DNA of 35,024 nucleotides from an uncultured Pelagibacteraceae bacterium (GTDB lineage Bacteria; Pseudomonadota; Alphaproteobacteria; Pelagibacterales; Pelagibacteraceae). This document shows positions 16,374 through 22,279 of this stretch, in pieces; the first letter of the stretch is position 1, and the number at the start of each line of letters is the position of its first letter. The DNA lies in contig CACPOX010000012.1 of NCBI GenBank assembly GCA_902635665.1, positions 1 to 35,024 on the forward strand, in the 5' to 3' direction. The notes below the pieces were generated by a model, which worked only from the letters and a program-made list of their open reading frames with translations, did not search any database and was not told the DNA's origin. The translations under genes were made by a program, and so were the position numbers.

Positions 16374-16544
16374 ATGGTGATTCTAGCCCCTTTTTATTTG
16401 AACTTTTGATTGATATTTCACTTAATTTAAAATTTGATCAATTTTTGAATTCAGAATTTGTAGACTGAATCGAATAATTTTTTGAAAATTATAACTAAAT
16501 TAAAAATTAAAATTTTTTATGAAAAGAACAAAAACTTTATTTTA

Positions 16545-16908
16545 CGCCAGATAAACTATAAGCCGGGTTCTGTCATTTAAACTTATCATTTGTCTAGGCA
16601 TAAGATCACTCTTATGCTCAAGCAACTAACCCTGATGACGAGCCAAGGACGGCTTTTTGTTTTACAATTGTATAACAATGTCATCTCTACTTAGTCTTGC
16701 TCTCAGTGGGGTTTTCCAGCGTTCATTGTTACCAATAGAACCGGTGTGCTCTTACCACACCTTTTCACCCTTGCCATGTTATGGCGGTTTATTTTCTGTG
16801 GCACTGTCCCTAGGGTTTCCCCTGCCAGGCATTACCTGGCACTGTGTCCTTGTAGAGCCCGGACTTTCCTCTTTAATTAATTAAAGCGATAAGTCATTTA
16901 TCTGGCAA
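16545..16908 (-). ncRNA. rnpB: RNase P RNA (bacterial type A)
   Basis: The catalytic RNA of RNase P, which trims tRNA 5' ends. On the minus strand the conserved GAGGAAAGTCCGGGCTC element (near 16872-16856) and the late GAACCCGGCTTA element (16570-16559) are both present; in known RNAs these form the P4 core. The terminal sequences GCCAGATAAA (5', from about 16906) and TTTATCTGGCG (3', about 16545) pair to form P1. Other family marks are AGGGTGAAA and the GGTAAGAGCACACCGG segment. Ends are set by the P1 pairing and are accurate to a few bases. A 75-codon plus-strand frame inside it is not credible as a gene. Confidence 0.96.
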
Positions 16909-20241: not shown

Positions 20242-20318
20242 TGGTGGGCCCGCCAGGACTCGAACCTGGGACCAATACATTATGAGTGTACTGCTCTAAC
20301 CAACTGAGCTACAGGCCC
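20242..20318 (-). tRNA. tRNA with CAU anticodon, probably tRNA-Ile2 (lysidine type)
   Basis: A 77-nt cloverleaf on the minus strand with 7-bp acceptor stem GGGCCTG/CGGGCCC, normal D arm (AGCTCAGTTGGTTAGAGC), anticodon loop CTCATAA, T loop TTCGAGT and encoded CCA. A CAU anticodon fits initiator Met, elongator Met or Ile2. The pairs C4-G69 and C5-G68 are those that E. coli TilS recognises in tRNA-Ile2, whereas its elongator tRNA-Met has other pairs there. This favours Ile2, decoding AUA after lysidine modification. It is not an initiator, because the acceptor starts with a paired G1-C72. Confidence 0.85.
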
Positions 20319-20376: not shown

Positions 20377-20451
20377 TGGTGGGCCGTGTTGGTTACGCTC
20401 CAACTACCCCTGCAATGTCAATGCAGTACTCTACTATTGAGCTAACGGCCC
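20377..20451 (-). tRNA. tRNA-Val (GAC) with highly atypical D and T loops
   Basis: A 75-nt cloverleaf on the minus strand. All stems pair: acceptor GGGCCGT/ACGGCCC, D stem GCTC/GAGT, anticodon stem CTGCA/TGCAG around TTGACAT (anticodon GAC), T stem GTTGG/CCAAC, then A and encoded CCA. The T loop reads AGCGTAA where nearly all bacterial tRNAs have TTCRANY, and the D loop AATAGTA lacks one of the two conserved guanines (G18). C56 and G19 are still present, and positions 54 and 58 read A and T, the reverse of the usual T54-A58. The RNA starts 4 bases after the rpoD stop codon, so it is probably cut from the rpoD message. It may be a working divergent tRNA or a decaying one; intact stems favour the former. 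Confidence 0.75.
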
Positions 20452-20455
20452 AGAT

Positions 20456-22279
20456 CTAGCTTTCTAAGAAACTTTTTAATTGTTTAGATCTACTAGGGTG
20501 CTTTAATTTTCTAAGTGCTTTAGCTTCAATCTGTCTAATTCTTTCTCTTGTTACAGAAAACTGCAAACCTACCTCCTCTAGAGTATGATCGGTATTCATT
20601 CCAACTCCAAATCTCATTCTTAAAACTCTTTCTTCTCTTGGAGTTAGTGTAGATAAAATTTTTGTAGTTGCCTCCCCAAGATTTGATTTAATAGCTTGTT
20701 CAAGTGGGGCTAGAGCTTTTGTATCTTCAATAAAATCACCTAAACTACTATCTTCTTCATCACCAACTGGTTTTTCTAATGAAACTGGCTCTTTTGAAAT
20801 TTTTAAAACTTTTCTTACTTTGTCTAATGGCATTCTTAATTTTTGAGCAAGTTCTTCTGGAGTCGCTTCTCTACCAAATTCGCTTAATATTAATCTTTGA
20901 GTTCTGACAATTTTGTTAATTGTTTCTATCATATGGACTGGAATACGAATAGTTCTTGCTTGATCAGCGATTGATCTTGTTATGGCCTGTCTAATCCACC
21001 ATGTTGCATATGTTGAAAATTTATAACCTCTCCTGTATTCAAACTTATCAACTGCCTTCATCAATCCAATATTTCCTTCTTGAATCAAATCTAAAAATTG
21101 TAGGCCTCTATTGGTATATTTTTTTGCAATTGATATAACTAATCTTAGATTTGCCTCGACCATCTCTTTTTTTGCTATTCTTGACTCTTTTTCTCCTTTT
21201 TGGACCCTGCTAACTAATTTTTTAAAATCAGTTACTGATATGCCAAGTTTGCGGCTAATCTCAATCAGTCTCTCTCTTATGTTTTTAAATTCACTTTTAT
21301 TTTTTGCAAAAAATTGTTTCCATACACTGTTAGTGTCTAAAAATTTTTTAAGATTTGGATTAATTTCGTTTCCTACATAAAATTTGATAAATTCATTTCT
21401 TGGAATTTTTTGGTCCATTGCTAATCTTAAAAGATTTCCCTCTAGAGAAATTATTTTTTTGTTTTCTATATAGTGCTTTTGAACTAATTCCTCTAAAACA
21501 GATGGAGACAATTGAAGAGATTTTATATTATCTAAAATATCATTAACTATTTTTTCATATCCTTTTTCTTTAGCTAACGAAAAACTTTGAGAGTTTAGTG
21601 CGCATTCCAATTTATCTTTTTGGTATTTAATTAACTTCGTATATTCTTTAGTAAGTGTGCTTACAGTTTTTAAAACTTTAGGTTTAATTTCAGTCTCCAT
21701 TGCAGCTAACGTTGGATTAAATTCCTCGTCTTCATCAGTAGGACTTTCGTCTTTATCGGTTTCCCCAGAATTTTTTTGCTTTGCACTTGGTCCCGTAGTT
21801 TCATCTTCCATATAGTTTGTATCAATATCAATAATTTCTCTAACTAAAATTTCATCTTTTTGTAACTGATCATTCCACTCGAAAAATTGTTGAGCAGTTA
21901 TTGGGCTTTGTGAAAGTGCAATTAGCATTACATCTTTTCCTGCTTCAATTCTTTTTGCTATTGCTATTTCACCCTCTCTAGAAAGCAACTCAACTCCACC
22001 CATTTCTCGTAAGTACATTCTTATAGGGTCGTCACTTTTTTCAATTGTTTTTCCTTCTTCTTTGTTTGCATTTTCTTTTTTTCTTAAAATTTTAAAATCA
22101 GATTTTTTTTCTACGAGAGTAACATTTTCATCTAAAATATGGATGAATGCCTGTGCTAAGTTTTCATCAGATAAATTTCTTTTACCTAAAGATTTGCTTA
22201 ATTCTTCATATGTTATAAAACCTCTATGAGTTCCACGACCCATTAGTCTAGCAAATGATTTTGTAATTATTCTTTCCAC
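20456..22279 (-). CDS. rpoD: RNA polymerase primary sigma factor RpoD (sigma-70)
   Basis: A 607-residue housekeeping sigma factor. The N-terminal part has region 1.1-like sequence ([10 protein letters not shown]) and region 1.2 ([21 protein letters not shown], about 85-105 read in two parts). Then come an acidic non-conserved insert (about 160-195) and regions 2 to 4: [28 protein letters not shown], the promoter-melting [14 protein letters not shown], region 3 ([12 protein letters not shown]) and the region 4 helix-turn-helix ([20 protein letters not shown]). Length is normal for alphaproteobacteria. It lies 68 bases downstream of dnaG in the classic yqeY-dnaG-rpoD cluster; that gap could hold its own promoter, but none was firmly identified. 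Confidence 0.98.

Follow-up and report, generated by a model that had tools for sequence, protein, structure and literature searches.

A probable A18-G55 elbow with an inverted 54-58 pair in a conserved tRNA-Val(GAC) of SAR11 bacteria

Introduction

A tRNA gene whose stems all pair while its D and T loops depart from the canonical sequence raises the question of whether it encodes a working tRNA with a different elbow, a pseudogene or a sequence error. Such a gene is found in DNA of an uncultured Pelagibacteraceae bacterium (SAR11). The window analyzed, i.e., the whole stretch of 35,024 nt, lies on contig 12 of a 1.1 Mb, 37-contig assembly (85% complete). Free-living cells are generally taken to have the G18-Psi55 and T54-A58 contacts almost without exception. 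In the standard elbow, residue 18 lies between residues 57 and 58 and forms a one-bond G18-Psi55 pair, G19-C56 is the outer pair and a U-A pair closes the T loop (excerpts of PMC4810234). The features of the window needed here are as follows.

20377..20451, minus strand: tRNA-Val(GAC) gene, 75 nt, CCA encoded (ARAGORN, Rfam RF00005, minimum-energy fold)
20393..20399, minus strand: T loop AGCGTAA, i.e., A54 G55 C56 G57 U58 A59 A60 (sequence)
20417..20419, minus strand: anticodon GAC (ARAGORN and bracket structure)
20432..20438, minus strand: D loop AATAGTA, i.e., A14 A15 U16 A18 G19 U20 A21 (sequence and bracket structure)
20456..22279, minus strand: rpoD (NCBIfam NF004208 and neighborhood in relatives)
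20242..20318, minus strand: canonical tRNA(CAU), T loop TTCGAGT (ARAGORN; Rfam 72.7 bits)

Results

The tRNA-Val(GAC) gene and its setting

The first-pass annotation had described a tRNA-Val(GAC) with paired stems, encoded CCA and rewritten D and T loops. This description was confirmed by ARAGORN, by a score of 53.6 bits with the Rfam tRNA model RF00005 (gathering score 29) and by a minimum-energy fold that is a full cloverleaf (z = -3.74). The 7-4-5-5 stems are paired and the CCA is encoded in the sequence. The canonical T loop is U54 U55 C56 R57 A58 N59 Y60. In the window tRNA, position 18 is changed from G to A (20435), 55 from U to G, 54/58 from U/A to A/U and 60 from a pyrimidine to A, the last a detail missing from the annotation; G19 (20434), C56 and purine 57 are unchanged. 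The canonical G18-U/Psi55 contact (here A18 and G55) and the U54-A58 closing pair (here A54 and U58) are absent, and the outer G19-C56 pair is present. The annotation had read the G18-psi55 and 54/58 contacts as changed together, with 54/58 swapped (A/T) and G19 and C56 kept, and the sequence agrees. A15 lies opposite A48, which is not a Levitt pair; the same two bases occur in a relative's copy with canonical loops (L138).

E. coli Val identity elements are A35, C36 and A73, with G20, G45, G3-C70 and U4-A69 as minor elements (PMC9976931, accessible portion). By this list, the window tRNA has A35, C36, A73, G45 and G3-C70, and two minor elements are absent (U at position 20 and C-G at pair 4-69). 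Its score, four stems, CCA and Val identity elements all place it in RF00005 with isotype Val. The GAC anticodon is expected to read GUU and GUC. The Val codons in the window ORFs are GUU 274, GUC 30, GUA 187 and GUG 47, counted in 29 of 30 ORFs (one overlapping a longer ORF was left out).

Among the 21 tRNAs of the window's own assembly, tRNA-Val(GAC) is the only Val tRNA seen. The annotation had suggested a check for another tRNA-Val(GAC) in the genome. In the complete genome G012, Val(GAC) and Val(TAC) are each present once, and no second, normal tRNA-Val(GAC) was found among its 32 tRNAs. Four assemblies of the window's genus, here called g1 (G093, G144, G162 and G167, 92 to 97% complete), gave no tRNA-Val(GAC) at E <= 1e-13; all their matches were read as tRNA-Val(TAC), Phe or Ile, and each genome has Val(TAC). 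If Val(UAC) reads all four codons in these genomes, they may manage without the Val(GAC) gene; alternatively, it may be missing from the four assemblies.

The rpoD stop codon is located 4 nt upstream of the tRNA gene on the same strand, and rpoD served as the marker of the orthologous locus. The neighboring tRNA(CAU), which we take to be tRNA-Ile2, provides an ordinary elbow for comparison beside tRNA-Val(GAC). In two loci (L002 and L018) about 0.9 to 1.0 kb separates the tRNA-Val and CAU tRNA genes, a possible insertion site; the spacing is about 50 to 75 nt in the other loci of the first relatives set that hold both. The window also carries a complete class A RNase P RNA gene (16543-16905, minus strand; 292 bits, Rfam), a ribozyme expected to read the tRNA-Val elbow.

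Conservation in relatives

A first search of relatives matched 30 of 61 genomes and 30 loci were read: 28 hold the rewritten tRNA-Val (the window's own counted), one holds a tRNA-Lys and one has no tRNA. The T loop AGCGTAA is found in 28/28 copies and the D loop AATAGTA in 27/28. This T loop is not due to chance, because all 28 loci holding tRNA-Val carry it. Five of the 28 copies have other stems, with six distinct sequences in all. In these six sequences 126/126 stem cells are paired without mismatch, and two-sided changes are found at 10/21 stem pairs, a level reached by 0/500 shuffles. The comparison of the locus in relatives that the annotation had proposed shows covarying stems, which change in pairs while AGCGTAA stays constant.

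A scan of named genomes for the loop pair gave at least 106 rows identical to the window's 75 nt among the 120 matches listed; the rest of these 120 are eight Pelagibacteraceae Val variants and six rows from other organisms. The named records with the identical tRNA are Pelagibacteraceae or Candidatus Pelagibacter. Single-cell and metagenome assemblies are among the named records of the scan, and the same top score is found in single-contig genomes (e.g., G062 and G063). In two further rows of the scan (L216 and L234) the T stem is imperfect and several other tRNAs are located nearby; these rows are unclassified.

The identical 75 nt was found in 109 loci with 105 distinct rpoD sequences. Compared pairwise, the rpoD genes of these loci have a median nucleotide identity of 81% overall and 58% at third positions. 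An identical tRNA gene beside divergent rpoD indicates that selection or frequent gene exchange keeps the loops constant. It was concluded that the tRNA-Val(GAC) of the window is neither a sequence error nor a pseudogene. The recent pseudogene or error offered as an alternative in the annotation was rejected on the stem covariation with constant loops, the identical copies in relatives (at least 106 rows among the matches listed) and the conservation beside divergent rpoD. One relative (G337) carries a decayed rewritten copy (L139) with mismatched stems, the T loop AGTGTAA and C56 lost, and a canonical tRNA-Val(GAC) (L168) is found elsewhere in the same assembly. This is possibly a replacement caught in progress, or contamination.

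Two alleles at one locus

A model of the tRNA-Val (R1) was tried on 15 loci. Rewritten copies scored at least 101 bits, canonical Val(GAC) 76.8 bits and other tRNAs 60.2 bits or less; beyond this trial, diverged rewritten copies scored down to 86.3 bits and one canonical copy up to 89.2 bits. The order-wide search matched 298 of 397 genomes at E <= 1e-15 (41 in family f2, 20 in other genera of family f1 and 237 in g1). In g1, 12 of the 237 matched genomes score below the rewritten level and the other 225 are at E <= 1.2e-24, a level where every g1 copy read was rewritten. The rewritten form is the usual state of tRNA-Val(GAC) in the genus. The annotation had called such an elbow rare in free-living bacteria; this is corrected by its prevalence in g1 and by the related forms in candidate-phylum bacteria and phages described below. 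The f2 genomes are at the canonical score level, and the one read (G037) has TTCGATC. In a class-wide search, three of 385 genomes passed E <= 1e-19, all in g1, the window's own included.

ARAGORN called tRNA-Val(GAC) in 185 Pelagibacteraceae loci. The gene is within 40 nt of the rpoD match end in 131 (123 rewritten and 8 canonical) and farther away in 16 (13 rewritten and 3 canonical); 38 loci have no rpoD in the covered DNA. According to the annotation, relatives with a normal TTCGA T loop at this locus would point to an error. Such alleles do exist (11 loci near rpoD, including 8 with a gap of at most 40 nt), but they are a minority (12/237), which indicates an evolutionary switch and not an error. 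The canonical copy L138 differs from the window tRNA only at one acceptor pair, position 18 and the T loop. In L148 the D loop is ATTAGTA and the T loop is TGCAATC, so that A18/G55 is combined with an unchanged U54-A58; this copy is a plausible intermediate between the canonical and the rewritten elbow.

In the other genera of the family, rewritten Val is found in 3/3 genomes read from g7 and in G105 and G410 of g8. Canonical Val is found in G256, G287 and G338 of g8 and in the genomes read from g5 (two), g6 (one), g9 (two), g10 (one) and g11 (one). The alleles are interleaved on a tree built from the rpoD genes of 61 loci, 9 of which are canonical. The allele label needs at least seven changes, and branches with good support force three of these. 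Of the 58 inner branches, 25 are open, and 31 to 43 of 500 label shuffles are equally low. A single origin within the genus is not supported by these seven or more changes, on a tree with many weak branches, and recombination of a 75-nt gene would give the same pattern.

Covariation of positions 18 and 55

The Steinberg laboratory (2003-2004) reportedly selected "specific purine trap" suppressor tRNAs in E. coli. In these, G at position 55 is said to go with A18 and U with G18, and G54-G58 is said to be able to replace U54-A58. In complete genome G012, the TTC motif is missing from three of the 32 tRNAs, namely those for Val(GAC), Phe(GAA) and Thr(GGT), and all three have A18 and G55. The loops of tRNA-Phe(GAA) are AGGAGTA (D) and TGCGAAT (T), and those of tRNA-Thr(GGT) are AGGTAGTA (D) and TGCAAGT (T) (G012 loci L072 and L082). 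U54-A58 is kept along with A18/G55 in this Thr(GGT) and in Phe(GAA) of many Pelagibacteraceae genomes.

Among distinct ordinary-size tRNAs of the Pelagibacteraceae loci, 62 have G18/U55, 25 have A18/G55 and 0 are mixed, in accord with the reported purine-trap rule; the 62:25 ratio is not a frequency because the loci were partly chosen for tRNA-Val, but this choice does not account for the absence of mixed states. Fourteen tRNAs (>80 nt or with unusual loop lengths) were skipped in this count. G037 of f2 has 18 tRNAs with G18/U55 (nine skipped). Further skips in the tally, for length or loops, are 7 other and 238 viral tRNAs; two viral tRNAs were misparsed.

Related forms were found in other bacteria. 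Two Daviesbacteria records (one of them a chromosome of 821 kb) and one Microgenomates record carry a tRNA-His(GTG) whose D loop is AAAAGTA and whose T loop is AGCGTTA. A tRNA-Phe with the loops AGTAGTA and AGCGTTA is present in a record of Gribaldobacteria, a candidate phylum (NCBI listing).

Viral contigs scanned for A18 with G55 gave at least 123 hits among the matches listed. Of these 123, 77 match an ARAGORN tRNA, with many isotypes (mainly Gly, Phe, Ile and Met). The same contigs hold 351 phage tRNAs that were not chosen by the pattern: 320 G18/U55, 19 A18/G55, 9 G18/C55, 2 A18/U55 and 1 G18/G55, so that 339 are in the two states of the purine-trap rule and 12 in others. The 19/351 is not a general frequency because the contigs were picked for holding one A18/G55 tRNA. 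This tally skipped 303 viral tRNAs, and 21 had no register giving a Watson-Crick 19-56 pair. The outer elbow pair itself is apparently swapped in some phage tRNAs (viral loci L292-L411), A19/U56 in 7/351 and U19/A56 in 4/351; the register was chosen by 19-56 pairing and these two counts are biased.

Covariation of positions 54 and 58

The A18/G55 tRNAs form 85 clusters at 80% identity (75 viral). Their 54-58 bases are U-A in 42, G-G in 21, A-U in 15, A-A in 4, C-A in 2 and C-C in 1; ten of the 85 clusters are non-viral, many of them fetched by a pattern fixing A54 and U58. The mutual information between 54 and 58 is 1.283 bits compared to 0.076 bits after shuffling, where clustering reduces but does not remove shared ancestry and the shuffles ignore it. 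The next of the nine pairs tested are 54-60 (0.761 bits) and 58-60 (0.745 bits); position 60 is A in 15/15 A-U clusters and 16/21 G-G clusters. The viral pattern left positions 54, 58, 59 and 60 free, and 95 distinct viral A18/G55 tRNAs have U-A in 43, G-G in 24, A-U in 18, A-A in 4, C-A in 3, C-C in 2 and G-U in 1. Hits with fewer than 4/5 T-stem or 5/7 acceptor pairs were dropped from the viral and non-SAR11 tally, leaving four of six non-SAR11 loci. As judged by this covariation, 54 and 58 still act as a pair in A18/G55 tRNAs; in a purine trap this pair would be of the reverse-Hoogsteen type. In G18/U55 phage tRNAs with the same D-arm context the pair is U-A in 36/38 and A-U in 2/38, and the latter two indicate that the 18-55 and 54-58 switches can occur apart.

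Modification enzymes

TruB, the Psi55 synthase, belongs to a widespread enzyme family, and all 14 control genomes matched (14/14). No TruB match was found in 7/7 single-contig g1 genomes (99 to 100% complete), compared with a match in 5/5 near-complete genomes of g5, g6, g7 and f2. Order-wide, 56 of 397 genomes matched, 14 in g5, g6, g7 and g11 and 42 in f2, with none in g1, g8, g9 or g10 in a search that would miss a very diverged TruB. Given the lack of TruB matches in the genus, Psi55 is probably absent from its tRNAs, and this may have made the 18-55 switch easier. TrmFO gave no match over the cut-off in 12/12 genomes; the search picked up a 622 to 640 aa paralog, probably MnmG.

Genus g7 has both TruB and rewritten Val, so TruB loss was not required for the Val change; g9 and g10 have no TruB match and canonical Val. 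TruB loss as the full cause was rejected, since in the seven further genera read from the family the Val state does not track TruB. The fit to TruB is better for tRNA-Phe than for tRNA-Val. A Phe match was obtained in 24 of the 30 genomes asked, and A18/G55 Phe occurs only in genera without a TruB match (24 genomes read). It is found in 4/4 genomes read in g8 and 2/2 in g9. In g1 the state is mixed, with A18/G55 in G222, G063, G062, G067 and G081 and canonical Phe in G068 and G082. Phe is canonical in the single g10 genome and in 10/10 genomes read from g5, g6, g7 and g11. For tRNA-Thr(GGT), 12 of 30 genomes matched and the nine read (g5, g6, g7, g9 and g11) are all canonical; these nine are all outside g1, and an A18/G55 Thr was seen in G012 alone.

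Discussion

The tRNA-Val(GAC) of SAR11 is, on sequence comparison, very probably a working elongator tRNA in which A18-G55 forms the elbow and an inverted 54-58 pair closes it. A18 would replace G18 and pair with G55 instead of U/Psi55, still lying between residues 57 and 58. The pair closing the T loop would be inverted from U54-A58 to A54-U58, with A60 changing alongside. Because G19-C56 and purine 57 are retained, no change is expected in the flat outer face that RNase P and the ribosome read. The 54/58/60 change probably followed the A18/G55 swap, as suggested by the one genome with A18/G55 and U54-A58. The tRNA would be charged by ValRS and decode normally, T54 and Psi55 are presumably absent from it, and TruB loss would have eased the elbow switch in the genus. 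The functional tRNA with a different elbow suggested in the annotation gains support from the stem covariation, the conservation and the covariation at 18-55 and 54-58. It counts against the elbow model that A54-U58 is not obviously isosteric with U54-A58.

The same bases could have arisen by neutral relaxation, if loss of the T-loop modifying enzymes removed selection on positions 18, 54, 55, 58 and 60 and the drifted loops were inherited. The lack of TruB matches in single-contig g1 genomes and of TrmFO matches over the cut-off in all 12 genomes is in keeping with this. Drift, however, would not keep the loops constant next to rpoD genes whose third positions are only 58% alike, nor would it give covariation with 0 mixed 18/55 states, and g7 has TruB yet rewritten Val. 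We consider relaxation improbable. The decayed copy L139 and the canonical alleles near rpoD are what a pseudogene or a sequencing or assembly error might leave behind, but six distinct sequences covarying in their stems without mismatch, at least 106 identical rows among the 120 matches listed and the top score in single-contig genomes make this reading hardly credible.

It might also be argued that the tRNA-Val is diverted from translation, like the staphylococcal cell-wall tRNA-Gly, and is charged but used for another purpose. The non-proteinogenic S. aureus tRNA-Gly is also altered at 18/19 (PMC4052509, sections available), and four near-complete g1 genomes are apparently without tRNA-Val(GAC). 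The diverted tRNA-Gly, however, have GG replaced by UU or CU and are extra isoacceptors in the same sections, whereas tRNA-Val(GAC) keeps G19-C56 and is sole in G012. The A18/G55 elbow is also present in tRNA-Phe and tRNA-Thr(GGT), each single in G012, and in many phage isotypes. The chance of diversion is very small.

With a working elongator tRNA as the preferred reading, the natural, repeated use of A18-G55 and the A54-U58 pair appear to be new. A literature search of titles and abstract openings, with subscription journals mostly outside its reach, found nothing on A18-G55 in natural bacterial tRNAs, SAR11 tRNA-Val or SAR11 TruB loss, which is not proof of absence. None of the terms looked for is present in the accessible text of the SAR11 tRNA-signature paper PMC3937112, and the phage-tRNA literature checked, available in part, has no mention of the terms looked for on the D-loop, T-loop or elbow.

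In a dominant ocean lineage, both elbow contacts are replaced within a chromosomal tRNA, and the covariation indicates that the positions still behave as pairs. In the genus, the rewritten elbow coincides with the apparent absence of a Psi55 synthase. This elbow offers a natural experiment on the elbow needs of the ribosome, RNase P, EF-Tu and modification enzymes. More tentatively, and with doubts outweighing our confidence, A18-G55 with an exchangeable 54-58 pair (U-A, A-U or G-G; more rarely A-A, C-A or C-C) could amount to a second elbow code in nature. It would have evolved repeatedly, in streamlined bacteria and in phages, and would maintain the L shape with neither Psi55 nor T54. If true, such a code would let lineages drop TruB, and phage tRNAs could stay independent of, or unseen by, host enzymes reading the canonical elbow. 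There is also a possible blind spot of tRNA finders, as 46 of the 123 listed viral pattern hits have no matching ARAGORN call; some of these may not be real tRNAs.

Comparison with known systems

The SAR11 tRNA-Val shares with canonical bacterial tRNA (RF00005) the cloverleaf lengths, G19-C56, purine 57, U8/A14, CCA and a normal anticodon loop. It differs in having A18-G55 for G18-Psi55, A54/U58 for U54/A58 and A60 for Y60. The eukaryotic initiator tRNA keeps U55. It has an A54-A58 pair (PMC7912444, in excerpt) and shares A54 and a changed 54-58 pair with the SAR11 tRNA, which in contrast is an elongator Val tRNA with U58 opposite A54 and with a further change at 18-55. tRNA-Pyl and metazoan mitochondrial tRNAs are also without the standard G18 and TPsiC contacts (PMC7609411, in part); these have shortened loops or other D-loop contacts, whereas the loop and stem lengths and G19-C56 of the SAR11 tRNA are standard. 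The non-proteinogenic tRNA-Gly is an extra isoacceptor with UU or CU at 18-19 and the weak EF-Tu pairs A49-U65 and A51-U63 (PMC4052509, sections available). The SAR11 tRNA-Val is not of this type, being single in G012 with A18 G19, G49-C65 and U51-A63.

The closest parallel is with the purine-trap tRNAs. Those are laboratory selections, whereas the SAR11 elbow is natural, conserved across a genus and recurrent. We know of no A54-U58 among the purine-trap variants. If the Steinberg work is as reported here, the principle was predicted, the SAR11 elbow is its natural occurrence and A54-U58 is an addition to it.
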